Positions 15,499-33,412 of a stretch of DNA of 40,832 nucleotides are shown one piece after another. The position numbers were made by a program, and so were the translations under genes. Source of the DNA: a virus. Location: IMG/VR virus record IMGVR_UViG_3300048112_000058, positions 1 through 40,832 of that record; one strand, written 5' to 3'. Position 1 is the stretch's first letter. Each line of letters starts with the position of its first letter. Below the pieces are notes generated by a model. The model did no database searches. It worked only from the letters and a program-made list of their open reading frames with translations, and was not told the origin of the DNA.

Positions 15499-18400
15499 AT
15501 GCCAATAATAAATACAAACTTTATTGCAGGTAGGATGAATAAGTCTGTGGACGAGAGACTCCTTCCACCAGGTGAATATGTAGATGCTATAAACGTGCGT
15601 CTGGGTTCTACTGAAAACACTGAGATAGGTGCTGTAGAGAACTCAAAGGGCAACAACTCCTTGACTACATTAGAGTATGGTGGGCAGTCACTGTCAAGCT
15701 CGGCAACATGCCTAGGTGCATATGACGATGGGCAGCTGGAGACTATGTACTGGTTTGTTCATGACCCCGCTAACACAGTGGCTACCGATGGTGTAGTTGA
15801 TATGGTGGTGTCGTTTAACACGCAGAACAATCAGCTCAGATACCATGTGATAACACTTGACGTATTAAAGTTTGACCCAGAGTATTTAATAACTGGCGTA
15901 GATAAGATCGAGGACTTACTGTTCTTTACGGACGGAAAGAATCCACCAAGGAGAATAAATGTAAACGACACATACGAATTTCCTACGGGGGATGTGGATG
16001 GTATAGAGGAGGAGGATATATCTGTGATACTAAAGCCACCTGGTTTTGAAGACCAGACAGCAACTGGCGAAGTTCCACTGACAGCACCTACGTTTGAGTT
16101 AATCAATGTGGTGGGTGGAGAAAATTATTTGGAGGACAGGTTTATAAGCTTTGCCTACAGGTACAGGTACATAAACAACGAGTACAGTGCGACTTCTTTA
16201 TTCAGTCTACCTGCATTCCAGCCATCAAACTTTAGGTTCGATACCCGAAGCTATGACAACGCTGGTATGTCTAATGCATTCAACGGTGCTAAGGTAAAGT
16301 TTAGCACAGGGAGTGACAGGGTTGTTCAAGTTGACTTGCTGTATAAGGACTCTAACACTAACAGGATATATGTAATAGAGAGGTTCAAGAAGGAAGACTA
16401 CGGCTGGGCAGACAACGCAACGCAGGAGTATGTGTTCACGAACAGTAAGATATACTCTGTAATAGGATCGGATGAGTTACTGAGGCTGTACGACAACGTC
16501 CCACTAAAGGCACAGGCCCAAACAATAATGGGCAACAGGCTGATATACGGTAACTATACCGATGGGTATGACATAGTAAACATAAACGGACAGAACATTC
16601 CCATAGACTACTCTACATCACTATTCGCTACATCGTTAAGCCTTATAAACTTAGACAATGCTGTACTCGAAAACTCATCCGTAAATCCTGGTGTTGCTTA
16701 TACCATAAACCCATCAGCAACTATTGATGTGCCTAACTCTTTAGCCACAGTAGACCTTGCAGAGGTAGAAGACCAACTCTTAAGGGGGGCGCAGTTAGCT
16801 TTTGATATAAGGATTGAACACTTTACTATAAACGGTACAACTACTGATACGTGTTACATCGATAATGTTGGGTTTAGTAATTCTCCGCTTAACATAAATG
16901 TCACCATAAACCTCACACAGGACTATGCAAATGTCTTTGACTTTGTTAATTCAGCAGATTTTGAGAATGCTATAGGAACTTTGATAGACACAAACTTTGA
17001 ACCAATAGCAACAGCTGACCAGGGGATATCTCTAACGGATAGGTTTAACGCAGGATTAGTAGCACCCGCTGAAGGTGATTGTGACTTTGATAAAATCATA
17101 AGTTCTATTACAAGTAGTGTTGCGCAGCAGGGATTTGCTATTAGTGCTACCTCTGGGCAAACTACCTTTACTTTACAGACGCTGGCGATGAAGTACTCTA
17201 CAGGTACTACTCCATCTGCTGACATGTACGAGTACTTTAGCTTCAGTTCGTTTAGGGTGGGCTTTACTAACAACATAAATAAATCAAGCCTACACAGTGA
17301 CAGAGACTTTGAGACTGGGATTGTATACCTAGATGAGTACGGCAGGGGTTCTACCGTCTTGGTATCTGAGTACAACACTATATTCGTTCCACCTAGTGCG
17401 AGTCTAACAAAGAACCAGATACAGGCCACAATACAGAACTACGCACCAACATGGGCGACTAAGTATAAGTTTGTAGTCAAGCCAAGTAAGGTTGGGTACG
17501 AGACGGTTTACAGCAACTTCTTTTACACAAACCCGTTTGACAACGTAACACACTTTAAGCTAGAGGGTGACAACACGAACAAGGTAAAGGTTGGAGACAG
17601 ACTTAGGGTAAAGAGAGACACAAGGGGTGCTTTAACGTCCTTGGTTGAGACCACGGTACTGGGCGTAGAGGCACAAAGCTCTGACTTTTTAAATGGACAG
17701 CAAGAGCTTGGGGAAGACAGCGAGCAGTTGGCAGGGCTATACATGCAGATCAAGGCGACCAACTTTTCTGCTCAGGTTTCTAGCAACTCTATAATTGACT
17801 ATGGACTAAGGGCAAGAGCATCTGACTCAAAGGTGCCTGGGGATGATGTATGGGCCTTATCATACCCATGCTATACATACGACACTGTTGGCGGCACAAC
17901 AAGTAACTATGACCTGCCTGCAGGTTCAGTCATAGACATGAAGTTTAAGTTCTTTAGACCTGAGGGTGGTGGTGGGCCAGTAAGAGAATGGGAACTAGAC
18001 AGGAGCTTTGTAGTGTCAGAGGACTACAGTGACTTCCACGAATTTTGGACTGCCTCTAACATAGACACTACCGCAACATACTCTTCAGGGGCTGACCCTG
18101 TCGGTATTTACAATACTAACTTTGTTGACCCATCAGGTAGTGGTTTAGATCCAAATGCTACATCTCCAACAAACGCAGATGGGGCATATAAACGTGCTGA
18201 TGAGACTGTGGGGGAGGATCTCTTTAAGATGTACTTTCAGTTCATACAGCAAGATCCAGGTAACGTAACAAGTCCTTTATGGCTTGGTGTTAGGTGTGGG
18301 GGTATAGGGATCAATGGATGGACTGTGTTTGACCAAGAAATGACTGTATCTGCTGAGATAGTAGTCCAAAGGGCAAACACGGTAATGGTATTTGAAACAG

Positions 18401-20310
18401 AGCCAGCCGATGCAAACGATGAGATTTACTTTGATGCGTCAGAGGCACTGCCCCTAGTTAGGGACGTGGCTACTGGAAACATGCTACACAAGTCAACGGG
18501 GAGCGTGGACTCTGGTGACCAAGACCAGACCACTACACAGGACGCAATCGTTACTTTAGACTTTATGGACTGCTATACCTTTGGTAATGGCGTGGAGAGC
18601 TATAAGTACCTAGACAGGATAGATGGAAGGTCTGTTGTCATGGGGCAGAGGGGACTGGCAGTAGCGGAGCAGGACTACAAAAAGACAGACAGGTTTGCTG
18701 ACCTTACATACAGCGGTGTGTACAGCAGCAGCTCTGGCATAAATAACCTTAACGAGTTCAACCTAGGTCTGGCAAACTTCAAGACACTGGAGACATCGTT
18801 TGGCCCTATACAGCTACTGTTTGCAAGGGAGACAGACATACTCACGCTACAGGAGGATAGGATTAGTTACGTACTTGCGGACAAGAACCTTATCAGCGAC
18901 TCAGTGGGTGGCGGGTCTATCGTGTCAGTGCCACAGATACTAGGCACACAGATAGCTCGTGTAGAGGAGTATGGTATTAGTTACAACCCAGAGAGCTTTG
19001 CTAACCACGGGCCTTACTTTTACTTTACCGACACCAAGAGGGGTGCTGTGATAGAACTTATGGGTAACTCTAGTAACGACAGGCTTAGGGTTATATCAAA
19101 CCTAGGAATGCGGTCTTGGTTTAGAGACCAGTGGAACTTTCAGTTGAACACTCAGAAGGTTGGTGGCTTCGATCCATATATGGACGAGTATGTCCTTGGA
19201 ACAAACTTAAACCCTGTGCCTGTACCTGAGCCTGTGCTACAGTGTGGCGCACAGCTATCGTTCAAGGGACTAAGTGAGCCTGTTACGCACACATATAACT
19301 TTGGAAGTATAATTGGAAACAGTGTAGTAGACTACGAGATATACTCAGGCGGGATTACTATAGACGTGCTATGGAACGGGAACACATACTCATCGGGTGT
19401 GGTTACTGTGTCAGGAAGTTTTACGTGGAACAAGTCAGCACTTACACCTACCAATGCACAGGTCACTATAACGCCTGTTGATACAGCTGCATTTAGTGTG
19501 ACACCACAGTGTGTAGGGAAGATACCACTTACGGTAGTGAAGTGTATGATCAACTCAAGCACTAACGCAGGTGAGACTATACACGTTGAGTACAGCTGGA
19601 GCAATACAAACTCTAATAGCCCAGTAGACAGCGACATGGCCACACTGGGTACGAGTAACAACACGTTTAGCTTCTACAATGTACAGGCTGGTATAAGGTC
19701 ACAGGGAGTGTTCCCGTACAGCGGAGTTGATTTTACTATTAGGGCAAACAAGGTAAACTTTGATGACTATAACTGGGGGTATCCAGAAGATAACTTCAAG
19801 TACCTGTCTTCTAACACATTGTATGCCAACACCCCTACGGATGTGGATGCGTTGTTAGCGGCTTCTACTACCATACCAAACGTAGACGTGACAAGCCCTT
19901 CCCCTAACATAAACTTAGCAACGGTGACTGGACTAAGCCTGCCAGTAGGAAACCAGTACCTGTATGTAATATACGACCTTAGGGATATTAGCGCACAGCA
20001 GCTGTGCTACGATTCAACTTCTGCGATTGCAGCTTGTTGTACGTGTACATGGAGCTGTGTTCCTTTCTTAGCGAGTACATCATCGGTAGAGGACTCAGTG
20101 TGTGGCATGGTTACAAACTCAACGTACTACCACAACAACGGGTCTGGTTCTTTACCAGTGGTTGGAAGTATTGTGTACACAAGTTCAAACTGTGAGGACA
20201 CAACAACGGGTCTGGTAAATGTATTACCTTCAGGGTTCTATAAGATATCTGCAACAACGTACATGGAGATAGGATTAAATGGCCTGGTGCTACAAATAAA
20301 AAATTGTTAA
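15499..20310 (+). CDS. Large tail protein, probable tail tubular B-like / stabilisation protein
   Basis: A 1603-aa protein, too long for T7 gp12 (about 800 aa) but in its position and with its typical opening: 'RLLPPGEYVDAINVRLGS' followed by 'EIGAVENSKGN', then beta-propeller-like strands and 'LLFFTDGKNPPRRINVN' near residue 145. Such proteins form the nozzle of podovirus tails. The middle is long, beta-rich and non-repetitive. A second nozzle-like stretch near residues 1120-1230 reads 'LLFARETDILTLQEDRISYVL' and 'YFYFTDTKRGAVIELMG'. The last 200 residues are Cys-containing, with a 'CCTCTWSCVPF' cluster and a terminal module ending in Cys, related to the next gene. The two ends probably have separate origins. 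Confidence 0.7.
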   Translation: MPIINTNFIAGRMNKSVDERLLPPGEYVDAINVRLGSTENTEIGAVENSKGNNSLTTLEYGGQSLSSSATCLGAYDDGQLETMYWFVHDPANTVATDGVVDMVVSFNTQNNQLRYHVITLDVLKFDPEYLITGVDKIEDLLFFTDGKNPPRRINVNDTYEFPTGDVDGIEEEDISVILKPPGFEDQTATGEVPLTAPTFELINVVGGENYLEDRFISFAYRYRYINNEYSATSLFSLPAFQPSNFRFDTRSYDNAGMSNAFNGAKVKFSTGSDRVVQVDLLYKDSNTNRIYVIERFKKEDYGWADNATQEYVFTNSKIYSVIGSDELLRLYDNVPLKAQAQTIMGNRLIYGNYTDGYDIVNINGQNIPIDYSTSLFATSLSLINLDNAVLENSSVNPGVAYTINPSATIDVPNSLATVDLAEVEDQLLRGAQLAFDIRIEHFTINGTTTDTCYIDNVGFSNSPLNINVTINLTQDYANVFDFVNSADFENAIGTLIDTNFEPIATADQGISLTDRFNAGLVAPAEGDCDFDKIISSITSSVAQQGFAISATSGQTTFTLQTLAMKYSTGTTPSADMYEYFSFSSFRVGFTNNINKSSLHSDRDFETGIVYLDEYGRGSTVLVSEYNTIFVPPSASLTKNQIQATIQNYAPTWATKYKFVVKPSKVGYETVYSNFFYTNPFDNVTHFKLEGDNTNKVKVGDRLRVKRDTRGALTSLVETTVLGVEAQSSDFLNGQQELGEDSEQLAGLYMQIKATNFSAQVSSNSIIDYGLRARASDSKVPGDDVWALSYPCYTYDTVGGTTSNYDLPAGSVIDMKFKFFRPEGGGGPVREWELDRSFVVSEDYSDFHEFWTASNIDTTATYSSGADPVGIYNTNFVDPSGSGLDPNATSPTNADGAYKRADETVGEDLFKMYFQFIQQDPGNVTSPLWLGVRCGGIGINGWTVFDQEMTVSAEIVVQRANTVMVFETEPADANDEIYFDASEALPLVRDVATGNMLHKSTGSVDSGDQDQTTTQDAIVTLDFMDCYTFGNGVESYKYLDRIDGRSVVMGQRGLAVAEQDYKKTDRFADLTYSGVYSSSSGINNLNEFNLGLANFKTLETSFGPIQLLFARETDILTLQEDRISYVLADKNLISDSVGGGSIVSVPQILGTQIARVEEYGISYNPESFANHGPYFYFTDTKRGAVIELMGNSSNDRLRVISNLGMRSWFRDQWNFQLNTQKVGGFDPYMDEYVLGTNLNPVPVPEPVLQCGAQLSFKGLSEPVTHTYNFGSIIGNSVVDYEIYSGGITIDVLWNGNTYSSGVVTVSGSFTWNKSALTPTNAQVTITPVDTAAFSVTPQCVGKIPLTVVKCMINSSTNAGETIHVEYSWSNTNSNSPVDSDMATLGTSNNTFSFYNVQAGIRSQGVFPYSGVDFTIRANKVNFDDYNWGYPEDNFKYLSSNTLYANTPTDVDALLAASTTIPNVDVTSPSPNINLATVTGLSLPVGNQYLYVIYDLRDISAQQLCYDSTSAIAACCTCTWSCVPFLASTSSVEDSVCGMVTNSTYYHNNGSGSLPVVGSIVYTSSNCEDTTTGLVNVLPSGFYKISATTYMEIGLNGLVLQIKNC

Positions 20311-20319
20311 AAAAATAAT

Positions 20320-21417
20320 ATGGGACAGTTAGGAACATACTACTTTAATGGAAACTCTTTTGCTCAGGCTACATCCGTGTTTACGGATTCTGATCTTACT
20401 ACCCTTGCGCCAGATGGCTACTACTCAAATGCAGGCATAGTAAGGCAGCAATTGCTTGGCATACTGCTGTCCGCAGAGACATGCAGTACCTGCTGTGTTC
20501 CATGTAACGCTCTTGTGTCAGTGTTCGAGAGTACAAGTGGAGTGTACTCATCATGCTTAGAGCTAGGTGGTGGAACGGGTGCTGTAATTTTTAGGATTCA
20601 AACTGGGTTTGTTGACCAAGGGCCTGGATACCCAGCGGGTACTATAATAACACACGATGGAAGTAACTATAACAGGTTTACTATCAAGTACAACCACAAC
20701 GGTATTGATCTTGTAGATGAAAATGGAACTCAAATAGATTATGCAGGCATAAACAATAACCCTACCGATCCTACGTATGTGGGAGTTGCTAGTACCAATA
20801 CAACTTTTGTTGCCACTTACGATCAAACCCCAACAGACCCATGCGAGCCATTAGACCAGCTCGAAGATTTCACATATGAATCTGTGACAGGGTCTTTTGT
20901 TGAGCAGGGGACGTACCAGACGGTTGTGGTTAATAGCAACCAAGTAGGTTTTTACACTCAGATCTCAACGAATGCTGCTAGGCCTTATACCTTAGTTTTC
21001 CCAAAAACAAACGCTGCGTCTACATTTGCTGACATGCTTAACTATTCACCACTGTGTGGCACTGGTATGACATTTGAGGTTGAGTGTCCCGCACAACTGC
21101 CGTTCTTTGATGGAGAAGAAGGTACTGTGAACATTCCTTTCTGTACAGACACACCAACTTTTAATACGTATTACTTCGCAAGGAATTCAGACAGTTATAA
21201 CTTTGAGACACAGCAGTTTGATGTGGACACGAACACCACGCCTGATGTGGGTAACTTTGTATTCACAACATCAGATGGCTCTGTGTACCTTAACGATACA
21301 TCAAATCCTTTATATTACTATATAGACATACCATCATCTCCAGGCGTAGGGGAATATATTAGAGTAAGAAACGGTGTGGTTATAGAGAAAGGCCCATGCC
21401 AACCTCAAACACCTTAA
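20320..21417 (+). CDS. Cys-rich tail-surface protein with repeated 'YY...C' modules
   Basis: A 365-aa beta-rich secreted-looking protein without a signal peptide. Residues 5-50 form a module (GTYYFNG, then 'VFTDSDLTTLAPDGYYS', then 'ILLSAETC') that I associate with flavobacterial adhesins and phage tail proteins. It is followed by a 'CSTCCVPC' cluster. The C-terminal 80 residues repeat the plan (NTYYFARN, 'YIRVRNGVVIEKGPC'). A similar module ends the upstream 1603-aa protein. The cysteines could form disulphides outside the cell. A role at the tail tip or host contact is an inference. The gene begins 9 bases after the preceding stop and is in the same operon. Confidence 0.6.
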   Translation: MGQLGTYYFNGNSFAQATSVFTDSDLTTLAPDGYYSNAGIVRQQLLGILLSAETCSTCCVPCNALVSVFESTSGVYSSCLELGGGTGAVIFRIQTGFVDQGPGYPAGTIITHDGSNYNRFTIKYNHNGIDLVDENGTQIDYAGINNNPTDPTYVGVASTNTTFVATYDQTPTDPCEPLDQLEDFTYESVTGSFVEQGTYQTVVVNSNQVGFYTQISTNAARPYTLVFPKTNAASTFADMLNYSPLCGTGMTFEVECPAQLPFFDGEEGTVNIPFCTDTPTFNTYYFARNSDSYNFETQQFDVDTNTTPDVGNFVFTTSDGSVYLNDTSNPLYYYIDIPSSPGVGEYIRVRNGVVIEKGPCQPQTP

Positions 21418-21429
21418 AAAATAATACAT

Positions 21430-22398
21430 ATGCCAGTACCGTCATCAAGTAATCCATTCACACTGACCTATAGCGAGGGGGCTGAGGGTTGGCCGTCTTT
21501 CTATACATACTTCCCTGAGTACATAAAGGGGATGAATGGATACCTATACACCTTCCAGAACGGAAACATGTATAGGCATAATACCAATAGCATACGTAAC
21601 AACTACTATGGCGTACAGGGTACGTCAAGTGTTACGAGCGTGTTTAACCCACAGCCATCGGTAACTATAAAGCTGTTTAAGACACTTTCGTTTGAGAGTA
21701 ATGCGTCTTGGGACTGTACGTCTCTGCTTACTGACCTAAGCCAGGGTAATGTACCTGAGCTAAACTTCGAGCAGAAGGAGGGTGAATGGTTTGCGTACAT
21801 AAGACACAACACGGGGGTAACAAACTTCTCCCTAAGGTACTCAAATGGCTTGGGCAACATAGTATCTGTTACTGGGATAGGTTGTCAATCTTATTTAATT
21901 ACTAATAATACTGGTAGTACTGGGTTTTATGAAATAACTGATTGTGATGGTAATGTACTACAAGGTACTTTAAATAGTGGCACTAGTACAACTTTCTGTT
22001 CACAGGTAGTACCAACGGTATCAAGTGGATTAACAATAAGTGCGGGAAGTACTACATGTCCAACCGATACGGTGCTGTGTACGTTCAACAACAACATAGG
22101 AAACATCATAACAAACGGGGCAACTGCTTACACACTAGCACCAAACTCTTCGCCATCCCTTGCAGGACAGGTGATAGAAGTGGTTAAGTCTGGAGACAGC
22201 GGTACGGTTACTTTGGATACTACGATAGCAGGGGCTACAGCCCCAGTCGCAGGCCAGTTCCTACTGTTTGTTAACAACACTATAGCGGAGAGCTATGGCA
22301 TGAGGGGATACTACATGGAGTTCACGTTAGTTAATGACGACACCACGCCAGTAGAGCTATTTGCAGTGGGAAGTAGTGTGATGAAAAGTTTTCCATAG
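21430..22398 (+). CDS. Tail-associated structural protein with inserted Cys domain
   Basis: A 322-aa beta-rich protein. The N-terminal 150 residues (WPSFYTYFPEYIKGMNGYLY, 'FQNGNMYRHN', 'FKTLSFESNASWDC') and the C-terminal 110 (VIEVVKSGDSGTVTLD, 'YYMEFTLVNDDTTPVELFAV') read like tail or spike proteins of marine podoviruses. Between them residues 152-210 form a Cys-bounded domain (CQSYLITNNTGSTGF, 'TDCDGNVLQGTL', 'TFCSQVV', 'STTC') of a kind common in flavobacterial surface proteins. Its DNA (21883-22010) is distinctly more AT-rich than the flanks, pointing to insertion. It is the last gene before a new TAnnTTTG promoter, so it probably closes the neck-tail operon. Confidence 0.6.
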   Translation: MPVPSSSNPFTLTYSEGAEGWPSFYTYFPEYIKGMNGYLYTFQNGNMYRHNTNSIRNNYYGVQGTSSVTSVFNPQPSVTIKLFKTLSFESNASWDCTSLLTDLSQGNVPELNFEQKEGEWFAYIRHNTGVTNFSLRYSNGLGNIVSVTGIGCQSYLITNNTGSTGFYEITDCDGNVLQGTLNSGTSTTFCSQVVPTVSSGLTISAGSTTCPTDTVLCTFNNNIGNIITNGATAYTLAPNSSPSLAGQVIEVVKSGDSGTVTLDTTIAGATAPVAGQFLLFVNNTIAESYGMRGYYMEFTLVNDDTTPVELFAVGSSVMKSFP

Positions 22399-22406
22399 AA
22401 ATTTAT

Positions 22407-22414
22407 TATCTTTG
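22407..22414 (+). promoter_or_regulatory. Bacteroidota -7 promoter element TATCTTTG (leaderless start)
   Basis: TATCTTTG sits in the 22-bp gap after the 322-aa gene, only 6 bases before the ATG at 22421. Because transcription in Bacteroidota starts a few bases after this box, the first transcribed base would be at or next to the A of the ATG, giving a leaderless message for the acetyltransferase and probably the ejection-protein genes behind it. Confidence 0.6.
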
Positions 22415-22420
22415 CATTAA

Positions 22421-22831
22421 ATGGAATTAAATATAAATAGACTAAGCTCTACTGACTATGACGATATACTGTGTCAGTGGTGGAGAGACTGGAGATGGAC
22501 ACCGCCCCCTAAAGATTTTTTACCTGAGGACGGGACTGGTGGGTATATAGTATATGACAATGAGACCCCTGTATGTGCAGGGTTTATGTACATGACAAAC
22601 TCTAAAGCGGTTTGGTGTGACTGGATTATATCGAACATAAACTACAAGGACAGGGACAAAAGAAAGGCGGCTATAAGGCTGCTTATAGGTCACATAACAG
22701 ACATAGCAAAGAACAGTGGACACAGGTACTCATACGCACTGATACAGAGCAAGCCACTTATAGAGGCATATAAGGATCTGGGGTACACAGAGGGTTCTAA
22801 ATACACAAGTGAAATGATTAAAATATTATAG
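22421..22831 (+). CDS. GNAT-family N-acetyltransferase
   Basis: A 136-aa protein with the compact GNAT layout. It opens with 'INRLSSTDYDDILCQWW', then 'GGYIVYDNETPVCAGFMY' (strands 2-3), 'AVWCDWIISN' (strand 4), a basic pre-helix region 'YKDRDKRKAAIRLLIGHITDIA' where the acetyl-CoA loop would be, strand 5 'YSYALIQSKPLIEAYKDLGY' and a C-terminal 'SEMIKIL'. The canonical Q/RxxGxG/A loop is not preserved in exact form, so the cofactor mode may be altered. It acetylates an unknown substrate. Small GNAT genes of this type recur among virion genes of marine podoviruses. It starts the third late transcript, and the next ATG is one base after its stop. Confidence 0.7.
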   Translation: MELNINRLSSTDYDDILCQWWRDWRWTPPPKDFLPEDGTGGYIVYDNETPVCAGFMYMTNSKAVWCDWIISNINYKDRDKRKAAIRLLIGHITDIAKNSGHRYSYALIQSKPLIEAYKDLGYTEGSKYTSEMIKIL

Positions 22832-22832
22832 C

Positions 22833-23609
22833 ATGGCAATAGGAACAGCAGCAACAATAGGAGTAGGAGTTAGCGCAATAAGTTCAGGACTATCTTTTAA
22901 GCAGGCCGCAGACCAATCAAGGATGGCATCCAAGGCAAGGAAGGCATCTGAGAAGCTAGTAGCGGACGCTAGAAAGAAGGCAGAGAAGGACTACTACGAG
23001 GGACTGAACGTACCCCTAGACGCATACGGGGAGCAGTTTGCTCAAAACATGGCAAACCAGCAGCAGACTATACAGGCACTGCAGGAGGGTGACACAAGGA
23101 ATCTTATCGGTGGGGTGCAGGGGCTAACTGCAGCTGCGGCAGCGGCCAACGAGCAGACACGTATTGGTCTGGGTCAGGAGCTTTATGCTAACAGGCAGAT
23201 GAAGGCCGACTCTAGGCAGAACATAAACCAACAACAGTTACAGATAGATATAGGCCAGGCGACAGACCAACAGCTTATGGCTAGGGACGCTGAACAGGCT
23301 AGGGCTGCTGCTATGCAGAGTGGTATAAATAGTGCTGCAAACGCTGCTTATATATATGGTAGGGGTAAGGATTTATATCCAAATAAAGATAAAACATCAC
23401 CAGACCCACCAGATGTCAATCCAGTAACCCTCTTTGATGAGTTCAACAAGCGTGGTGGTCAAGAAGATGAGTTTGCTAAAATAGGTGCTAATATTTTTAA
23501 GAAAAATCCAATGTCAAGCATATACGGCATGACAATACCAGGAGGTACGGAGCAGAAAGATAGCTATATTCCAGGTCTTCTTCCATATCCTACTAGCAGA
23601 AAAAAATAA
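22833..23609 (+). CDS. Internal virion protein candidate, 258 aa
   Basis: A 258-aa Ala/Gln-rich helical protein. The N-terminal 25 residues form a hydrophobic Gly/Ala segment (AIGTAATIGVGVSAISSGL), followed by long helices with 'KARKASEKLVADARKKAEKDYYEG' and 'AAAAAANEQTRIGLGQELYA'. A polar, Pro-containing C-terminus follows (about 185-258). A membrane-active N-terminus plus an Ala/Gln-rich helical body is the pattern of T7 gp14, the ejection protein that enters the outer membrane during infection, and the gene is followed by two larger candidates as in T7 (gp14-15-16). The family match is by architecture and gene order only. Confidence 0.55.
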   Translation: MAIGTAATIGVGVSAISSGLSFKQAADQSRMASKARKASEKLVADARKKAEKDYYEGLNVPLDAYGEQFAQNMANQQQTIQALQEGDTRNLIGGVQGLTAAAAAANEQTRIGLGQELYANRQMKADSRQNINQQQLQIDIGQATDQQLMARDAEQARAAAMQSGINSAANAAYIYGRGKDLYPNKDKTSPDPPDVNPVTLFDEFNKRGGQEDEFAKIGANIFKKNPMSSIYGMTIPGGTEQKDSYIPGLLPYPTSRKK

Positions 23610-23615
23610 ATAACA

Positions 23616-25466
23616 ATGGCAAAGGAAAGAAAGGATACACGAGAAAGGAGGGACACACCATCAGGGGCTAACCAGTTCTCGGTATACGCACAGAGGGACA
23701 CTGACTCAGTTCAGGTAGACTGGGGTGTTATAGCCAAGGACATAAGTGACGAGGTAACAAAAATATCTGACGAAAGGCAGACGAAGAGAGACGAACTTGC
23801 GACATCTCAGAGGAATACTTTAAACGAGTTGTCTCAGGTTGCCGACCTTGATAACCAGTCTGTAAATAATTTTGTTATAAGGGGTGGTAACTTTTCTAAG
23901 AACGCCATGGCAACGCAGTATGAACTAATGACTAGGGGTAAGATAAAGCCTAGCGAATACCAGCTCTTTCAGCAGAGTGTGAAGGATGGGTACAAGAACC
24001 TAAGTATATTTGCCAAGAACGCAGACGATAAGTACAAGGCTGCTATGGAAAGGCTGGCACAAGGAGAGGATGGAAATCAGATAGCGTCAGAGTTAGAGAT
24101 TGTTTTTAACGAGGGTACGTTTGATTACACAGACCTAAAGAACAAGCAGCTAATTACTAACCCGTCAACTGGTGAGATGCTTATAGTCACACTACAAGAC
24201 GATGGCAATGGTAACATGGTTATACCAGACCTAAAGAAAAACCCTGAGCTGTATCAAAGTCTGGCTACACTTAACAACAGGACAGCATTCCAACTGGACA
24301 GGCGTGACACAGGGAAGCTTACTACCGCTGCTGTGGCAGACCTAGGGGATGTGGTTATTTCTACCATAAGTGATTACACTGTATTAGGTGGGGGTGGTGT
24401 GGTTGAAAAGACTACGGGTATTAGGCAGGCATGGGATGAGTCTCTAATGAATGAACCAGGCGCATATGATAAATGGATGAGTGACTCGGTAGACGTTGTA
24501 GCAGGAAAGAGAGATAATCCAAACAACTTTAACGCTATGCAAGTATTAGCGAACACTGGAGTAAAGCTTTCACTCAAGGATGAGCCTGGTACAATTCAGT
24601 ACAGGACTAATGGGAATGGAATGCCTGAGTTAATGATGACACCAGAACAGATTGACCAGGCTCGTGATATAGTACAAAAGCAGATTGAGAGTAAGCTAAT
24701 ACAAAAAATTGAATATACTAAGGGTATGTCTGGTCAGCAAGTTAGTCCATCAAAATCAAAGGCAAATGATGATAAGAAAAAAGAGGAGGCAACTAACGCT
24801 CAAAATCTAAAAATGCTTGGTAATGTATTTCGTGGTAAAGATGAGTCTGCAGTGATGGCAGGCCTTGAACATTTTGCAAACATAAGTCCAAATGTAAAGA
24901 ATATAGAAAAAACAGCTGATGGTCTATTAGTTACGGTGGAGGTTAATGGCGAACTAGAGCCTAGGCTTATCACAATGAAGGGCAAAACATTTGAGCAATT
25001 TGTAGATTCTGCAGGAAATTTGCTGACTGGCAAGGATATTGATAAGACTAATATGACTGGTGGCGATGACACTAGTATAAGTGCTGTATATGGATCTGCA
25101 GGAATTGTTGAAGATGATGAATTTGATACTGATGCTAATGCCTTGGTATTAGATGAAAAGATAAATGATTTAGATTTCTACGAAGACGACGAGGAAATGC
25201 AGACACAAATCATAGATAGGTTTAAGAAGGACTTTCCGACTATAACTACTATAGATAAAGGTAATGACATTTTTGAGATTCAAGTCGGTGGATACACAGT
25301 TCCTAGTAATACATTCCAAGGTGACTTCTTTTCGATTACTGGTACAGAAGAAGGAGATGCAGAAAAGCAAAATCTTAAAGATTTTATGAGAGAATTATAT
25401 ATTCAGAAGTTTAAGAAAGAGAAAGGTAAAAAATCAAGTACAAGTCCTGATTACAGTAGCTTATAA
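23616..25466 (+). CDS. Internal virion (ejection) protein candidate, 616 aa
   Basis: A 616-aa charged protein between the gp14-like and the giant protein, the place of T7 gp15. The N-terminus is very basic (AKERKDTRERRDTPSG) followed by 'WGVIAKDISDEVTKISDERQ' and long helical stretches through residue 200. There are no catalytic motifs. From about residue 370 (base 24720) the codon style changes: GAA, AAA and AT-rich codons replace the GAG, AAG and AGG typical of the first part, and the sequence becomes acidic (VEDDEFDTDANAL, 'YEDDEEMQTQI'). This suggests a recombination join inside the gene. The C-terminus is Lys-rich. Confidence 0.5.
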   Translation: MAKERKDTRERRDTPSGANQFSVYAQRDTDSVQVDWGVIAKDISDEVTKISDERQTKRDELATSQRNTLNELSQVADLDNQSVNNFVIRGGNFSKNAMATQYELMTRGKIKPSEYQLFQQSVKDGYKNLSIFAKNADDKYKAAMERLAQGEDGNQIASELEIVFNEGTFDYTDLKNKQLITNPSTGEMLIVTLQDDGNGNMVIPDLKKNPELYQSLATLNNRTAFQLDRRDTGKLTTAAVADLGDVVISTISDYTVLGGGGVVEKTTGIRQAWDESLMNEPGAYDKWMSDSVDVVAGKRDNPNNFNAMQVLANTGVKLSLKDEPGTIQYRTNGNGMPELMMTPEQIDQARDIVQKQIESKLIQKIEYTKGMSGQQVSPSKSKANDDKKKEEATNAQNLKMLGNVFRGKDESAVMAGLEHFANISPNVKNIEKTADGLLVTVEVNGELEPRLITMKGKTFEQFVDSAGNLLTGKDIDKTNMTGGDDTSISAVYGSAGIVEDDEFDTDANALVLDEKINDLDFYEDDEEMQTQIIDRFKKDFPTITTIDKGNDIFEIQVGGYTVPSNTFQGDFFSITGTEEGDAEKQNLKDFMRELYIQKFKKEKGKKSSTSPDYSSL

Positions 25467-25477
25467 ATATAAATAAA

Positions 25478-28400
25478 ATGAATCCAGAAGTATTAAAAGA
25501 CTTATACGAAAGAGCTACATCTAAAGGTTATAGCAAAAGCATAGAAGAGTTTACTCAATTAATAAGTTCTAACCAAGAGGTTTTGGATGACAATTTTGAT
25601 TATGTAAAAACCAAAGGATACTCAAAAGATATTTCAGAGTTTTCTAAATTAGTAGGTTTTGGTGTAAAAAAAAAAGAAGACTCTATATCTGTTACTCCAG
25701 AGCAAAATGTGGAGTTGGTTTCGGAGGACACTTCTTTGGGTACACCCACGCCTCCTATCAATCAATCTGAAACTCTAAAGGGTGAAGAAAATACAATACT
25801 TGAAAATGTTGTAGGTAAAAACTTTCTTACTGATTTTGTAGGAGATATTTATCGTGCTGGTAAACAAGGTTTCGTTCAAGGAAATACGGCTGATGAATCT
25901 TATGACTTAATGTTTAAAGGTTCTGATGCATCCCCACAAGATATAGCAGAATTTATTCAATCACAACAAGAGCTAGCGTCATTAGGTGAAACTGATGAGA
26001 TGAGTAGCTTTAATAAAATATATGAAGAATCTGGTGGTGGCGTTCTTGGTTTCTTAAAAGGACTTGCATATAACCCATCTGTTGCTGCTCAGTTAGCTGC
26101 ACAAACAGTAACACAAATGCTTAACCCAGCCACGGCAGGAGCAGCTGGAGCTGTAGTTGCTACTGGGGCTGGTGTTGGAGCTATGGGTTTTGGAGTTGGT
26201 GCTATTCCTGGAGCAATAGCTGCTTTGCCTGTAGCTTATGGAGCTACTGGTATGGCTTTAGAAACAGGTATGAGCTTTGCAGAGTTTCTCAGAGAAGAGG
26301 TAGAAAATAATGGAGATAATTTTGATGAATCTGGTATTCAAAAAGTATTAGCCGATGAAGATGCCATGTTTAATATAAGAGCTAAGTCAGCTGGTCGTGG
26401 TGCAGTGATTGGTCTTATTGATAGATACACCATGAAAATGGGTGGTAAAATTGTTGGTAAACAAGCTATTAAAGGCGCAAGTAAAGGAAAAAGATTTGCA
26501 ACTGCTACTGCTATTGAAGGTGTAGGTGGTGGTGTTGGAGAAGCAACAGCAAGACTTGCTGTTGGCCAAGACATGGATGCAAGAGAGATTGGTTTTGAAG
26601 CGATAGGTGGAGCTGGTAAAGCACCATTTACATATGCTTATAGTAAGTTAAAATCTAAACCTGTATATAAAATTAATGGAGGAGAAGTTGACCTTCAAAC
26701 ATATACTGACATGGTTAACAAAGCATCTGACAAAGACTTTGCTGCCATGAAATTTGAGGTATCTAATGATAGTGACATAAAAGACTTAACTCAAGCAAGA
26801 AAAAATAAACTCAAAACACAAAACCAAGTAATAAAAGAAGTTGGTCAAGATAATATTACCAATAAAGAAACTTTAAATGAGTTAGTTAATTTAGAAACCG
26901 AGAAACAAAACTTGGGTGATCCTCAAACTGAAGGAGGAAAGAAGAGACTTGCTGAATTAAAGAAAAAAATTAAAGACCTTCAAGAGAATCCACTTGAAGA
27001 AGAAGTTGCCATTGAGGATGAGTATAGTAATTTATCTACCGAGGATAAGGTAGAGTTACAGGAGAGGGCCGTTAATGAAATTGAGACTGAGATGGCAGAG
27101 CAGGGTGTTGAAGACTATGACCTCACTGACGAGATGATTAACAAAAGAGCATCAGATATTTTTAATAAAGAGATATCAATTTTAGACGAAAGCATCAAGG
27201 AGGAAAATATTAAGCAAGAAGATTTAAAAGATGATATTAAATTTAGTGTAGCTGAAGAGGGGGATGCTTTGGTATCTGTAGATGCTGCAGATAGTGAATT
27301 AATTCAAGAGGAAATGAATAATGATTTTCCTGAATCAGAGGTAAACTTTGAATCAACTACTGAAGGTGGTGGTGTTAATGTTAGTCCTTTTGAGGATAGT
27401 AATTCAACTCAAGAATTTACCGATACTGATGCGGTTGAGATGGGGTTTGAGAGTAAAGAGAAGGCAGTTAAACCTATAGAATACTTTAATGGTATACCAA
27501 TGATTACAGGTATATCTGATACTGCAGCAGGTGGAACTATCAAAGACTCTAAGGGTGGTGATATGGAAGCAAAGGGTGGTATAATGTTTAATGCATTAGC
27601 TAAAGTTAAAGCAGCTTGGGCAGGAGTAAAACCAAGTACGTCTGAAGGACAATTTAAAAACGCAGTAAAATTATATAAAAAAAACAAACCATTGTTTGAT
27701 AGGTTATGGAAGGAAGGTAAGTTACCTAACGGTCAGATACCAATGGCAATTATAAGAATGGGTAATGATGCTATTAATTCTAATGAAATAGTATTTAGAT
27801 ATTTATCACCTGAAATTAATGCACAGTCTCAAGAGAATCAGACTGCTGCATTAAATGATTTAATTGCAGGATTAAAAGTTAAAAAGGGAAAACAGAATCC
27901 TAAACTTCTAAAATTTATAAGCGATAACAAAATTACAACTCTTGGTGCATTAATAAATGCCGTAGTTAAAGATGCTAACGCAAGAGCAAAAGGTAACTAT
28001 AAAACTACTTTAACGCTAGATGAAAGAGCAGCACTATATAATAACTTAACTTCACCTGAAGGAATTAAGAAAGCAAATAAGCCTTTCTTAAAATCATTAT
28101 ACAAAGGTACTACTGATAATTCAAGTGTATTTTTATCAGATAATATATACAATGCAGTAGGAGAACCGTCAATGATGAAAACCAAAAAGGGAGATATTGT
28201 TTCTATTGTTGGTGTTGATGTATTAGATGGTGGTGTTGTAGATATAGAACACGGTAACTATGGTTCAGGCCCAAAGGGTGGTTTAATTGCATTGATTAGT
28301 AATCCTACAAATGGAATGAATGTATTCCCTGAATGGAAAGCTAAATCAAACAGAGTCTTTAAAGAAAATACTGCAGGTGTTGCACCAACTAAAAAAGGTA

Positions 28401-31400
28401 CGGCTGCTCAGACAATGGGGACTGCTGCAAATGATAAAGCTTTTCAAGGTGCTGCAGTACAAACAGATATGTCAGATATTCAAGTCTTAGCTGCTAAGTT
28501 TAGATTTGCATTTCCAGGAGTAACTGTAGTTAGTACTAAGGCTGAGTTTGAAGCAATGCTAAAACAACCCAATATAAGGACTAAAGTGTCAGAAGGGAAA
28601 ATAATTCTTGGTATGACTACTGATGGTAAAGTTTTCTTGAACCCTGAGTTTAGTTCTTTAGGTACACCTATTCACGAGTTTGGTCACGTTTGGATTGACT
28701 TCCTTCGTTCTAAAGCAAGTGGTGATGCAGGAACTGCTCTATTAAAAAAAGGTTTAAAATTAGTTGAAGGAACTGAAGCTTTAAAAACTGCAATAGAAAA
28801 ATATGGAGACAACGCTTTAGCAAGAGAAGAAGCTTTAGTAGAGTTGATGGCAAACAAAGGTGAAACCATTATTGATGCAGGGAAAAAATCTAACTTTATA
28901 GAATGGTTGAATGCAACGTTTAAATATATTCAAAAAAAGTTTGTTAGGTCTGAGAAATTATTTGCTAAAGAAGATATAAAACAATTAAAGAGGCAACTAA
29001 AAAATGAGGAAATAACTCAAGAACAATATGATAAATCTCTTAAAAAGATTCAAGCATCTGTTAAAAAGAGTATAGATTCACTAACTATAGAAGACTTTAT
29101 AAACACAGGTCTTGCAGATTTATTTGGAGGTAAAGAACTAAGTGCATCGTTTGATGCCAAGAAAGAATCAAAAAATATTATGTTTAGTTTTGAATTGAGC
29201 GATAATGTTGTTCAGTTTATAAAGGACGCAAGAGGTCAGGGTATATCTAACGTAGCCATCAAAACTATCCTTAACAAGAGAGGTGTAGCAATGGATGTTA
29301 TACTTGAATCATTTAAAGAAGCAGGTGATATAGCAAATGTTGAATCTCAAGTAAGTGAGAATTTTGCTGAAGGTTTTGATAGGGTGATGAAAGAGATAGA
29401 TGGCGTAGTAGAAAAAGTTAAAAACAGAAACACTAAGGACAGTACAAGTCCTAAGAAATTATATGACGCTTCTGTATCTTACCTAAAGGGGACTAGGCTT
29501 TATGAGAATGCTACAGATGTCCAGCGTGAGAAAATGATTGTTGACCTTAGGAAAAAGTTTAACCAGCCAATAAAAAAATCAATTACACCTCAAGCTGCTA
29601 TTAAAAAAGCATCAAAAAAATTAGGGTTAGATATAAAAGAACCCTCTAAAATTACATTGACACAGAGACAAGCCATTGCTTCACAAATAAAATCACTTAA
29701 TCGTGGAGCAAAAGATGGCATAAGGTCATTCATTAAAGCAAGCAAGGCAGTAGCCAAGGAAGTTAGTGAGCTGGTAAAGAAAGGAAAGATAACTACCAAC
29801 CAGTCTTTAGTTATAATAAAAAGGTTTGCCAAGGTTAATATGCTTAGTGAGTCATCTATTGATAGCTTTGTGGACTACATGGCCAAGGTGTTTGCTAATG
29901 CAGACTACGCTAATACAATTAGCATAGCTAACAATAAGAGGGGTACGGCTAAGAAAAATTCATCAAAAGGAATAGGTATATTAAATTCATTAAGTGGAGA
30001 ACTTCAAAGAATATTTTCTATTAACCCACGCATGATACCTGACTCTGTGTTAGATAACTACATGGAGCTTATAAATATATTTGGAGGTAAGGAGTCAGTA
30101 CTAGGTAAGCTACCTACTCTTCAGAAAACGACAATGTTAGTGAATGATATACTCGACACCTTAAACCAGGAAATGAGTTTGATTCCTGAACTCAATAAGT
30201 TATACAACGAATATGAAAAAGTATTAAACGATGATGGTGAAGTAAGCTACGCTAAGACTATCAAGGAAATGCTAAAGGAGGAGGTAATCACAGAAAGTGA
30301 GTTTGAACTCATGAAGAAGTATAAGTCTGGGATTGTTCCCGCAAAAGAAAAGAAAGAGTTATCTGAAAAGGAAATTAAAGAACTCAAGGAAGATCTAAAA
30401 AAAGAGATTGACTTCCAAATAGCCGAGTATAATCCATCAAATAAAGACACACAACTGCCAACAAGACTTGAAAGAGATGCAGTAAAGTCTTTAATAAAGT
30501 TATCTAGGAATGATAAAGCATTAGATGGTTTAAGTTTAACTGATCTAAAGAATTTATCCAAGGTGTTTGGTAATATAAACAATGGATACTTTCCATCAGT
30601 TGGGTTTAAGTTAACCGAAAATCTTCAGTCAGTTATTGATGGGGAAATAAATAGCAATGCAATCAGTAGGGCTACGCCTGCTAAGATATCAATGGTGGTC
30701 TCAAGGATTAAGTCTCTTATAACAAAAAAAGATTCAATAGTTGAGTTGGTTAGAAGGAATCCACTCTTTAATATTGATCAAATTTTTGGCGACTATAAAA
30801 CTAAAGATATATTTAAATCATTATTTAGCCAGGCTGCTAAAGGCGTTGCTAATTTTAATAGTGATTTAAACGTAGTACAAAGAAAGGTTGAGAAAGCTAT
30901 AACAAAAGTAAGGAAATCTAAAAAAATTAATAACGATGGAAATAATTTTATCAAGTCAGCGTTTGAGCAAATGGCTTGGTCAATTCAAAATGAGTTCATA
31001 ACTAACCCTGAAAGTAATCAGGTAAACCCTGTACATAAATGGTTAGAGGCGACTATAAAAAGAATCGATAAGGGAACATCTCAGTTTTCATTTTCAGATG
31101 CTGAAGTATTGCAAGGTATTCTTGATACATATTACGATGCAGACACACAAGAGTTTGATAACGATGCGCTGTATGAATCATTTAATGCTGAGGAAAAGGC
31201 CTCTATTGAAACCATTAGAGAGATTAATGCAGGGCTTACAGAGAAAGCTGTATTTACAAAAAGTATTATTCGTGGAGATAAGTTTACACCATTAAATAAT
31301 AACATCCACATAAATGTTCTCAGTGCAACGGAGTCGGTAGACATATCCTCAGGCCCATCTTTTGCGGGAAAGATAAACGAAATGATGAGACCTTCATCAA

Positions 31401-33412
31401 GGGGAGGTAACCTAGAAGGTAGAACAGGGTTGGTGTCTAAGGATGGTATTAACTTTAACATATACGACTCAGTTTTAAAAGGAAGTAAAGGGACGTTAAT
31501 GGACTTTCACTTAACGTCTCCAATTAGGACTGCAAGGAAAACAATAAACAAGTCAGAGAAGAACTTAACAAAAAAAGGTAGAATCCCTAGCAATGAAAGG
31601 CTTATTTTAAATGCTATTAGTTCTGCTTTTGAAGAGAGTGTTTCAAATCTTTTAATAAACTCCTATACAGAATCTTCTTTTGGTGATGCCGCAATGCAGT
31701 TCTTAAAGGAGACGGGATATAGAACTATGCTGGCAGGTAGTGGGAGGTTTATTGCAGAGCTTACATCTAACGCAAGCTACGCTATGGTTGTAGACCCACA
31801 GGGATTTATAGTTGGAACAAAAGTTATGAGTAGTATAGACTCTGAAATGGGGCCTCAGATTGCAAGAAACTTAGGCTGGGAAAACCAAGGTAGGTTATAT
31901 GCTGACGGACTCAGTGGAAGAATGATTGACAGTTCTATTATAAACGAGGCAGCGGGCATGAAGTCTAAAGGAACAAGGTCAGGTGCAAAAAACTTTTTAC
32001 TTAAGTACTGGAATAAGACAGGTCAAAAGTATGTTAAGGGTGTTGAGTTCATGGCTGACGTTATGATTTCTACTCCTGATAAACTAGTACTCAGGCCTAT
32101 TACCTTTGGTTCATTTGATGTTAAATTTAAAGAGATAACAGGCAAAAGCCCTGACTATAAAAAAATAGCAGCAAATAATGAGGCGTACATGAACGCAAAT
32201 AAGTCTGCATTAAATGCTGCAAGTCAGTATGCTAATAAAAAATCTGTTTTTGCAGGGGCAACAGACAATGCTTTCATGGGCATACTTAAGGGAACTAAAA
32301 AGCCAAATCAAAGCGGATTAGCGCAAGCAATAAATACGTTTAATAATTTCATGACAAGGTTCTTGATATACGAATATGTAACTGCTCGTACAGGTATAGT
32401 GAACATGGTTGGAAGGGGAGACTTATCTAAAAAGAATGGTGCTGCACTGCTTGCGGGTGTTACCTCTCGTATGATGCTGTACACACTCATTGGTCAGTAT
32501 ACTTCATACGCACTATCTTCCTTGTTAGACCTTGACGATGATGATGATGACTACACTATTGAAGACGGTGTGTTTAAAGAGAACAAACCTATAGACCAAA
32601 TGAAAGGTTTTCAAAAGGTTTTAGGACAGTCTTTTGCATCAACATTTACTTCATTGCTTTTAGGTAGAGACTTTGGTAACGTTGCTAAATCCATTATAAA
32701 TTATGGGGTTGAAGAGTTTAATAAAGAAAATTTACAATTCTTGAGGGACGGTAAGTATGATCAGTTTAAGGATAGCATCCAGTATACTGTTAGCCCTAAA
32801 AAGAAATCAATGGGTGGATCAACTCTCGGAGACTATGTATTAGTATTGGGCGCACCGTTTGGCCCTGTGCTTAAAACAGTAGACTTAATCATAAGAAAAA
32901 TAACCGAGCCTGTAAGGAAAACTGGAGAGGCAAGAGAAAGACAGTTAAACGAAATAGGTCTAAGGATTCCTTTAGAAATACTAGGCAACCTTGGTATGAT
33001 TCCTATGTACAAAGATGTTCGCAAGGCAGTCCTTGAAAATATATATAAAGACTTACGTAAAGCATTAGCAGAAGCAGAGGACACTAAAAGAATAAAAGAA
33101 GAGATGCTTCAAGGGTTTGATAGCGAGAGTGACATGAAGCGTTATGACTATGAGTTATGGAGTAATACGTTCGGCCCTAACTCTCCTGGGTATGACGCTA
33201 GGGAAGCGAAAAAGAAATTAAAGGCTGCTGAGAGAAAAGTAAAAAAGCAATTGAAAGATGAGCTACATGACTACACTCCTAAGGTGAAGGGGAAGAGTAC
33301 TGGTTTCGGAAGGAGTGAGAGAAAGAGTTCTGGTTTCGGAAGGAGTAATAAAAAGAGTTCTGGTTTCGGAAGGAGTAATAAAAAGAGTTCTGGTTTTGGG
33401 AGAAGAAAATAA
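25478..33412 (+). CDS. Giant ejection-type protein with HEFGH metallopeptidase motif
   Basis: A 2644-aa protein, last large late gene, in the place of T7 gp16. Residues 1-60 hold two repeats of the type 'YERATSKGYSKSIEEFTQLI' and 'YVKTKGYSKDISEF'. Residues about 199-273 are a Gly/Ala-rich hydrophobic segment. H1066-E-F-G-H1070 fits a zincin site (HExxH), with E residues in 'REEALVELMA' near 1112-1122 as possible third ligand. Residues about 1300-2050 are Lys-rich and helical, and about 2287-2345 are hydrophobic again, ending in an Asp run. The C-terminus has four 'KSSGFGRS'-like repeats. I see no transglycosylase motif. I infer that it is packaged and ejected with the DNA, and that the peptidase may cut a host envelope or virion protein. 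A multi-domain 'polyvalent' protein is the alternative. Confidence 0.7.
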   Translation: MNPEVLKDLYERATSKGYSKSIEEFTQLISSNQEVLDDNFDYVKTKGYSKDISEFSKLVGFGVKKKEDSISVTPEQNVELVSEDTSLGTPTPPINQSETLKGEENTILENVVGKNFLTDFVGDIYRAGKQGFVQGNTADESYDLMFKGSDASPQDIAEFIQSQQELASLGETDEMSSFNKIYEESGGGVLGFLKGLAYNPSVAAQLAAQTVTQMLNPATAGAAGAVVATGAGVGAMGFGVGAIPGAIAALPVAYGATGMALETGMSFAEFLREEVENNGDNFDESGIQKVLADEDAMFNIRAKSAGRGAVIGLIDRYTMKMGGKIVGKQAIKGASKGKRFATATAIEGVGGGVGEATARLAVGQDMDAREIGFEAIGGAGKAPFTYAYSKLKSKPVYKINGGEVDLQTYTDMVNKASDKDFAAMKFEVSNDSDIKDLTQARKNKLKTQNQVIKEVGQDNITNKETLNELVNLETEKQNLGDPQTEGGKKRLAELKKKIKDLQENPLEEEVAIEDEYSNLSTEDKVELQERAVNEIETEMAEQGVEDYDLTDEMINKRASDIFNKEISILDESIKEENIKQEDLKDDIKFSVAEEGDALVSVDAADSELIQEEMNNDFPESEVNFESTTEGGGVNVSPFEDSNSTQEFTDTDAVEMGFESKEKAVKPIEYFNGIPMITGISDTAAGGTIKDSKGGDMEAKGGIMFNALAKVKAAWAGVKPSTSEGQFKNAVKLYKKNKPLFDRLWKEGKLPNGQIPMAIIRMGNDAINSNEIVFRYLSPEINAQSQENQTAALNDLIAGLKVKKGKQNPKLLKFISDNKITTLGALINAVVKDANARAKGNYKTTLTLDERAALYNNLTSPEGIKKANKPFLKSLYKGTTDNSSVFLSDNIYNAVGEPSMMKTKKGDIVSIVGVDVLDGGVVDIEHGNYGSGPKGGLIALISNPTNGMNVFPEWKAKSNRVFKENTAGVAPTKKGTAAQTMGTAANDKAFQGAAVQTDMSDIQVLAAKFRFAFPGVTVVSTKAEFEAMLKQPNIRTKVSEGKIILGMTTDGKVFLNPEFSSLGTPIHEFGHVWIDFLRSKASGDAGTALLKKGLKLVEGTEALKTAIEKYGDNALAREEALVELMANKGETIIDAGKKSNFIEWLNATFKYIQKKFVRSEKLFAKEDIKQLKRQLKNEEITQEQYDKSLKKIQASVKKSIDSLTIEDFINTGLADLFGGKELSASFDAKKESKNIMFSFELSDNVVQFIKDARGQGISNVAIKTILNKRGVAMDVILESFKEAGDIANVESQVSENFAEGFDRVMKEIDGVVEKVKNRNTKDSTSPKKLYDASVSYLKGTRLYENATDVQREKMIVDLRKKFNQPIKKSITPQAAIKKASKKLGLDIKEPSKITLTQRQAIASQIKSLNRGAKDGIRSFIKASKAVAKEVSELVKKGKITTNQSLVIIKRFAKVNMLSESSIDSFVDYMAKVFANADYANTISIANNKRGTAKKNSSKGIGILNSLSGELQRIFSINPRMIPDSVLDNYMELINIFGGKESVLGKLPTLQKTTMLVNDILDTLNQEMSLIPELNKLYNEYEKVLNDDGEVSYAKTIKEMLKEEVITESEFELMKKYKSGIVPAKEKKELSEKEIKELKEDLKKEIDFQIAEYNPSNKDTQLPTRLERDAVKSLIKLSRNDKALDGLSLTDLKNLSKVFGNINNGYFPSVGFKLTENLQSVIDGEINSNAISRATPAKISMVVSRIKSLITKKDSIVELVRRNPLFNIDQIFGDYKTKDIFKSLFSQAAKGVANFNSDLNVVQRKVEKAITKVRKSKKINNDGNNFIKSAFEQMAWSIQNEFITNPESNQVNPVHKWLEATIKRIDKGTSQFSFSDAEVLQGILDTYYDADTQEFDNDALYESFNAEEKASIETIREINAGLTEKAVFTKSIIRGDKFTPLNNNIHINVLSATESVDISSGPSFAGKINEMMRPSSRGGNLEGRTGLVSKDGINFNIYDSVLKGSKGTLMDFHLTSPIRTARKTINKSEKNLTKKGRIPSNERLILNAISSAFEESVSNLLINSYTESSFGDAAMQFLKETGYRTMLAGSGRFIAELTSNASYAMVVDPQGFIVGTKVMSSIDSEMGPQIARNLGWENQGRLYADGLSGRMIDSSIINEAAGMKSKGTRSGAKNFLLKYWNKTGQKYVKGVEFMADVMISTPDKLVLRPITFGSFDVKFKEITGKSPDYKKIAANNEAYMNANKSALNAASQYANKKSVFAGATDNAFMGILKGTKKPNQSGLAQAINTFNNFMTRFLIYEYVTARTGIVNMVGRGDLSKKNGAALLAGVTSRMMLYTLIGQYTSYALSSLLDLDDDDDDYTIEDGVFKENKPIDQMKGFQKVLGQSFASTFTSLLLGRDFGNVAKSIINYGVEEFNKENLQFLRDGKYDQFKDSIQYTVSPKKKSMGGSTLGDYVLVLGAPFGPVLKTVDLIIRKITEPVRKTGEARERQLNEIGLRIPLEILGNLGMIPMYKDVRKAVLENIYKDLRKALAEAEDTKRIKEEMLQGFDSESDMKRYDYELWSNTFGPNSPGYDAREAKKKLKAAERKVKKQLKDELHDYTPKVKGKSTGFGRSERKSSGFGRSNKKSSGFGRSNKKSSGFGRRK
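33301..33404 (+). repeat. 30-bp tandem repeat at the 3' end of the giant gene
   Basis: A 30-bp unit starting 'tggtttcggaaggagtaata' is repeated from 33301. The units at 33331-33360 and 33361-33390 are identical, the first differs at a few bases and the fourth is partial and diverged. It encodes the 'KSSGFGRSNK' repeats, a basic Gly/Ser/Phe tail. The perfect copies show recent duplication. Confidence 0.95.

Follow-up and report, generated by a model that had tools for sequence, protein, structure and literature searches.

The open reading frame that closes the structural block of this viral genome poses the question of what a protein of 2644 aa, encoded where an ejection protein would be expected and bearing a single HExxH motif, might do for the phage. 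The window, by which we mean the whole stretch of DNA analyzed here, is an IMG/VR virus record of 40832 bases, in which the ORF (25478-33412, plus strand) was confirmed. We favor, at about even confidence, a reading in which the product is a virion-packaged giant podovirus ejection protein assembled from exchangeable modules, one of them an intact-site zincin of the polyvalent kind whose probable role would be self-cutting.

The terminase and portal proteins of the window are 71% and 67% identical, respectively, to those of MW202828, an uncultured podovirus from Manatee Spring, and both are ~44-45% identical to their counterparts in Flavobacterium elemo phages, with remoter matches in Cellulophaga, Tenacibaculum and Maribacter phages. 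The window phage is most likely a podovirus, kin to Flavobacterium and Cellulophaga phages, and its hosts are of the Bacteroidetes type. The structural genes run from terminase through portal, capsid and tail proteins to three final genes for proteins of 258, 616 and 2644 aa, an order shared by the cultured relatives:

22833..23609 (+), 258-aa protein at a T7 gp14-like position, matching a virion structural PHROG (phrog_13764, E 2.8e-11)
23616..25466 (+), 616-aa protein at a T7 gp15-like or N4 gp51-like position, assigned by position only
25478..33412 (+), giant ejection-position protein, a 2644-aa ORF that closes the structural block

Two further window proteins are of note. The 322-aa product of 21430-22398 matches the C-terminal domain of the Crassvirus muzzle protein (crAss_MUZ_C, E 5.9e-14), a sequence match that may indicate a link to crassvirus tails. 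Within the structural block, 22421-22831 encodes a 136-aa protein, and the corresponding Manatee Spring protein bears the annotation of an acetyltransferase subunit. Scans of the window for promoters and terminators returned chance-level hits only.

The original prediction assigned the giant gene to the position of T7 gp16, and gene order bears this out: the gene follows the tail genes, as is usual for podoviral ejection proteins, and it is the final gene of the structural block here and likewise in MW202828, elemoA, phi46:3, phi18:3, phi38:1 and Calle_1. In Cellulophaga phage phi18:3 the same slot is occupied by gp123, the largest and final gene of its block, for which the GenBank record notes 'experimental MS/MS proteomics analysis'; this record note is the virion evidence for the slot. 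The phi18:3 protein gp121, whose place is comparable to that of the window 616-aa protein, was also found by MS/MS. No homology was detectable between the N-terminal modules of the window protein and the MS-detected phi18:3_gp123 domain; the connection is instead made by gp074 of Gundel_1, which unites a domain homologous to phi18:3_gp123 with a zincin of the window type (E 3e-38). Since gp074 holds both, the zincin falls within a family of virion proteins, and by this reasoning from relatives the window protein is presumably packaged in virions as well. Homology to T7 gp16 itself was rejected, with no sequence match in Pfam, PHROGs or NCBIfam. The likeness to the gp16 ejectosome protein (PMC8954989) is one of arrangement, in that each is the last and largest of consecutive ejection-position genes and each has a positively charged C-terminus and one hydrophobic stretch, whereas the window protein is twice as long, lacks the transglycosylase and carries a zincin. 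The absence of a transglycosylase signature had been anticipated, and indeed no peptidoglycan hydrolase model in Pfam, PHROGs or NCBIfam matches the protein, so that an identity as a peptidoglycan hydrolase was set aside.

The putative catalytic region comprises the following features:

28454..29137 (+), zincin-like metallopeptidase domain, residues 993-1220, delimited by alignments A1 and A2, AlphaFold, BFVD and a profile link to N4 vRNAP C1
28673..28687 (+), HEFGH active-site motif, residues 1066-1070, with H, E and H invariant in 48/48 sequences
28829..28831 (+), E1118, predicted to be the third zinc ligand, on a following helix, invariant in 48/48 sequences and aligned with the conserved Glu in both the type-2 zincin and N4 vRNAP

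The HEFGH motif is the sole HExxH of the 2644-aa protein. Residue-shuffled versions contained any HExxH in 0.15% of trials, a rate that together with the 48/48 invariance rules out a chance occurrence. All 55 ORFs that match residues 901-1191 in the fetched loci have HE[FY][GA]H. The HExxH motif itself served as one pattern in the homologue search; however, the eight loci recovered by peptide patterns from module M, which lies outside the zincin region, all have HE[FY]GH (8/8), so that the search pattern does not account for conservation of the motif. Alignment A2 spans 168 columns and 48 sequences, the divergent type-2 zincin among them; its mean column identity is 36% and only six columns are invariant, those of P1013, G1045, H1066, E1067, H1070 and E1118. 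H1066 and H1070 would serve as zinc ligands and E1067 as the general base. The suggestion that a downstream Glu might supply the third ligand could be narrowed to E1118, situated 48 residues past H1070 in the helical region that follows the HExxH helix, and its invariance across the alignment makes it the likely third ligand. The joint invariance of H1066, E1067, H1070 and E1118 is what a functioning metallopeptidase would be expected to show, and the window zincin would accordingly be predicted to bind zinc and cleave protein. Existing models are of little help in naming the family: peptidase models in Pfam, PHROGs and NCBIfam gave no match to the whole protein, single members scored weakly and below cut-offs against SprT-like, M78, DUF6782 and other Pfam models, no Pfam or NCBIfam model covers the clade, and the zincin profile retrieved nothing meaningful among sequences of solved structures.

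Structure prediction around residue 1066, proposed at the outset as one of several checks, yielded a zincin topology. Two AlphaFold runs of the region (pLDDT 84 and 81, pTM 0.64 and 0.72) placed a helix, a strand and a strand hairpin ahead of the HExxH helix and put E1118 on a long helix further on. A fold search of the PDB ranked PPEP-3 first in both lists, and listed lethal factor and IrrE/PprI in the first, none of them significant (E at least 0.45); with TM-scores of at most 0.37, these comparisons give no basis for membership in the PPEP-type or lethal-factor-type zincins. Among predicted viral structures in BFVD the sole significant match was the Gundel_1 structural protein (E 1.3e-4). 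Non-significant entries below it were other giant phage proteins, including the elemoC structural protein, crAss-like structural proteins and one whose name refers to a large polyvalent protein associated domain; shorter proteins of IrrE-like, SprT-like and lethal-factor-like type were listed as well. Taken together, predicted structure and residue conservation support assignment of the window domain as a zincin-type metallopeptidase with an intact active site. Of the two grounds for refutation named at the outset, lack of a zincin fold and absence from virions, neither materialized, given the predicted topology and the MS/MS detection of the same-slot protein in a cultured relative.

Iterative HMM searches of relatives were used to set module borders in the rest of the protein, giving the order N0, N, M, zincin, H, H2, C and basic tail:

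25478..25708 (+), module N0, residues 1-77, with repeats GYSKSIEEF / GYSKDISEF, 23 matches by iterative HMM
25664..25681 (+), N-terminal tag VKKKED, residues 63-68, identified by counts of the [LVQPI]KKK[ED] motif
25844..26809 (+), module N, residues 123-444, 42 HMM matches, PHROG 32588 at E 1.1e-88
27296..28396 (+), module M, residues 607-973, the upstream partner of the zincin, 32 HMM matches and an independent scan
29162..30277 (+), module H, residues 1229-1600, usually found after the zincin, 52 HMM matches
30275..33154 (+), modules H2 and C, residues 1600-2559, kept in closer relatives, 18 HMM matches each
33155..33412 (+), basic C-terminal tail, residues 2560-2644, net charge +18, with Gly-Phe-Gly-Arg repeats at its end

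Module N0 recurs N-terminally in many relatives (the Manatee Spring phage is one), module N is partly duplicated in some, and a scan with the C module gave a single match, to a near-identical contig. The modules recombine across loci, as is the case for very large multi-domain proteins with exchangeable parts. In locus L006 a stretch of module N is 86% identical to that of the window, but a different zincin (HEVFH) lies between N and H. This second type (HE[VI]FHA) occurs in L006:9539-17833, L008:9530-18910 and L064 (elemoA) 16946-28027, and profile alignment to the window type extends over the whole domain (probability 97.5) and superimposes both the HExxH motifs and the ligand Glu residues. 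These lineages thus retain a zincin even though the sequence family switches. The same-slot proteins of three cultured phages, phi18:3_gp123, phi38:1_gp101 and phi46:3_gp120, have no HExxH; the protease is thus an accessory module and not a general requirement for entry. Several observations from the relatives are recorded here in their own right. Two HExxH motifs are present in the giants of L061:13920-25496 (the Manatee Spring phage, with HEFGHWAFF at residue 1615 and HEFGHVW at 2500), L046, L049, L050, L095 and L096. A 2258-residue ORF with the zincin and H module occurs in L092 (CP070801.1), a contig assigned to a Candidatus Aenigmatarchaeota bin. The 3694-aa giant structural protein of elemoA matches DUF3293 at residues 1323-1392 (E 1e-12), and residues 896-966 of Gundel_1 gp074 (L066) gave a weak GNAT acetyltransferase match below cut-off (E 0.0018).

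Of two long hydrophobic regions originally proposed to insert in membranes, one fared better than the other. Residues 199-273 (26072-26296), within module N, are 43% G+A and moderately hydrophobic, with a best 19-residue Kyte-Doolittle mean of 1.68, whereas residues 2287-2345 reach just 1.26 and are not convincing; the proposal of two transmembrane regions was rejected on this ground. A short stretch near residue 2454 has a mean of 1.76, and module N is sometimes less hydrophobic in relatives (best mean 1.26 in L008). Within the first 160 residues [LVQPI]KKK[ED] occurs in 32/62 giants and in 0/265 other ORFs of the loci, two tag-bearing ORFs first counted as 'other' being truncated giants; elsewhere in the giants there are five occurrences in 151,850 residues. 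After removal of near-duplicates the tag remained in 29 of 52 giants, against a shuffle mean of 0.26. In the form [LV]KKK[ED] it is found around residues 30-110 in the giants of this slot alongside unrelated N-terminal repeat types, and it is also present in the zincin-free phi38:1_gp101. Its occurrence with various repeat types and in a zincin-free protein makes a packaging or handling signal likelier than a zincin cleavage site, and we regard KKK[ED] as a candidate for such a signal. At the other terminus, four ten-residue basic repeats of the (S/T)GFGRS..K type (33293-33412) close the giant protein; repeat variants in relatives include SSGFGPRK and GSGDGFGKKKRKKK.

The notion that a metalloprotease delivered with phage DNA would be an unusual strategy is not supported in that form. 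Among the domains of polyvalent proteins, which phages and conjugative elements deliver, zincin-like metallopeptidases (MPTases) are the most common; they have been grouped in 12 clades and proposed to act in self-processing or in attack on host proteins (PMC5512222). A domain with HExxH (C1, residues 2124-2375) is also present in the N4 virion RNA polymerase (PMC12633501). Like the polyvalent proteins (PMC5512222), the window protein is very large, multi-domain and phage-encoded, and like their zincins its own has HEXXH on one helix, the ligand Glu on a later helix, and a helix and strands before them. No named LPD or effector domain was recognized by Pfam in the window protein itself, although polyvalent LPD and ART domains are mixed with zincin modules in its homologues: ART-PolyVal with LPD23 in L050, LPD3 in L094 (a Dyadobacter contig) and LPD23 in L095 and L096. 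The window zincin profile scored 36 against N4 vRNAP C1, compared with at most 23.2 for column shuffles and 22.3 for unrelated modules, and the pooled zincin profile scored 45 (probability 74.8, E 2.6e-5), with the HExxH and the third-ligand Glu aligned. N4 gp50, likewise a giant podovirus protein and an ejected one, has a long C-terminal region after a zincin-like internal domain, as does the window protein; it differs in having an RNA polymerase, a domain that Pfam did not recognize in the window protein, and N4 C2 showed no detectable homology to modules H, H2 or C. The N4 C1 match and the homologues with ART-PolyVal and LPD domains together place the window protein in an already described class. 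The closest cultured carrier, gp074 of Tenacibaculum phage Gundel_1 (NC_062747, 2482 aa, 'structural protein'), has the same zincin family (HEFGHLW), but its N-terminal part belongs to the phi18:3_gp123/phi38:1_gp101 family, unlike the window modules, and its gene is placed before the terminase gene, unlike that of the window.

In the mechanism that we favor, the giant protein would be packed in the head, with the N-terminal repeats, their KKK[ED] tag and the basic tail as candidate signals, would exit through the tail before the DNA in a mostly unfolded state, and would refold in the envelope or cytoplasm, where the zincin would act. Self-cutting by the zincin, whether before the protein leaves the head or once it has entered the cell, would free the other modules. 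Packaging, ejection, zinc binding, proteolysis and the identity of the substrate are all elements that we infer. Self-processing is favored because most full-length zincin bearers, with both ends in the contig, are long (~2,300 to 3,860 aa), as against 1,439, 1,691 and 1,935 aa for the same-slot proteins that lack a zincin; these are only three and related to one another. Against self-processing, N4 vRNAP is packaged uncut (PMC5512222, PMC12633501). No cleavage site was identified in the giant protein. To our knowledge, no activity has been described for any member of the clade.

A second reading, in line with the original suggestion, possible but doubtful in our judgment and given about half the weight of self-processing, has the zincin enter the cell and cut a specific host protein involved in defense, transcription or the envelope. 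The domain is accessory, exchangeable and confined to some lineages, as expected of a conflict module; the ART domain in the related giant of L050 is a typical effector, and host attack is an option named in PMC5512222. Yet we found neither a host target nor any substrate-binding feature, and the retention of P1013, G1045 and the catalytic set over many phage lineages suggests a common and not a host-specific substrate. In a third reading the zincin fold would be a structural or allosteric element and not a working protease, with N4 as the supporting case: the available part of PMC12633501 reports no protease activity for C1, which has the motif, and describes the C-terminal domain of N4 vRNAP as autoinhibitory toward the polymerase. 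A scaffold would not need all four catalytic residues, however, and their invariance in 48/48 sequences that average so low a column identity makes this quite improbable. Least credible is a head-maturation protease that cuts capsid or scaffold proteins during assembly, since the phages phi18:3, phi38:1 and phi46:3 evidently assemble with same-slot proteins that lack HExxH and the gene sits at the ejection position, away from the portal and capsid genes, even though no separate prohead protease was recognized among the scanned window proteins and phage P1 offers the example of DdrB, which is cut before it is packaged (PMC5512222).

Self-cutting by a packaged zincin remains the reading that we prefer, and its wider interest lies in a class of injected multi-domain phage proteins that is known but experimentally little tested, and to which the window protein is a new addition. 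The prediction of metallopeptidase domains in injected phage proteins dates from 2017; in the parts of the literature available we found no report of tested metallopeptidase activity in a phage ejection protein. The invariant active site, the cultured carrier Gundel_1 and the zincin-free same-slot relatives make the choice between cargo processing and host attack directly testable, and the N-terminal tag is a testable candidate for the packing of giant cargo proteins. Were the injected zinc protease to cut a specific host protein, with the KKK[ED] tag sending the cargo into the capsid, a combination that we consider unlikely, podoviruses of Flavobacteria-type hosts would be a natural source of injected site-specific proteases.
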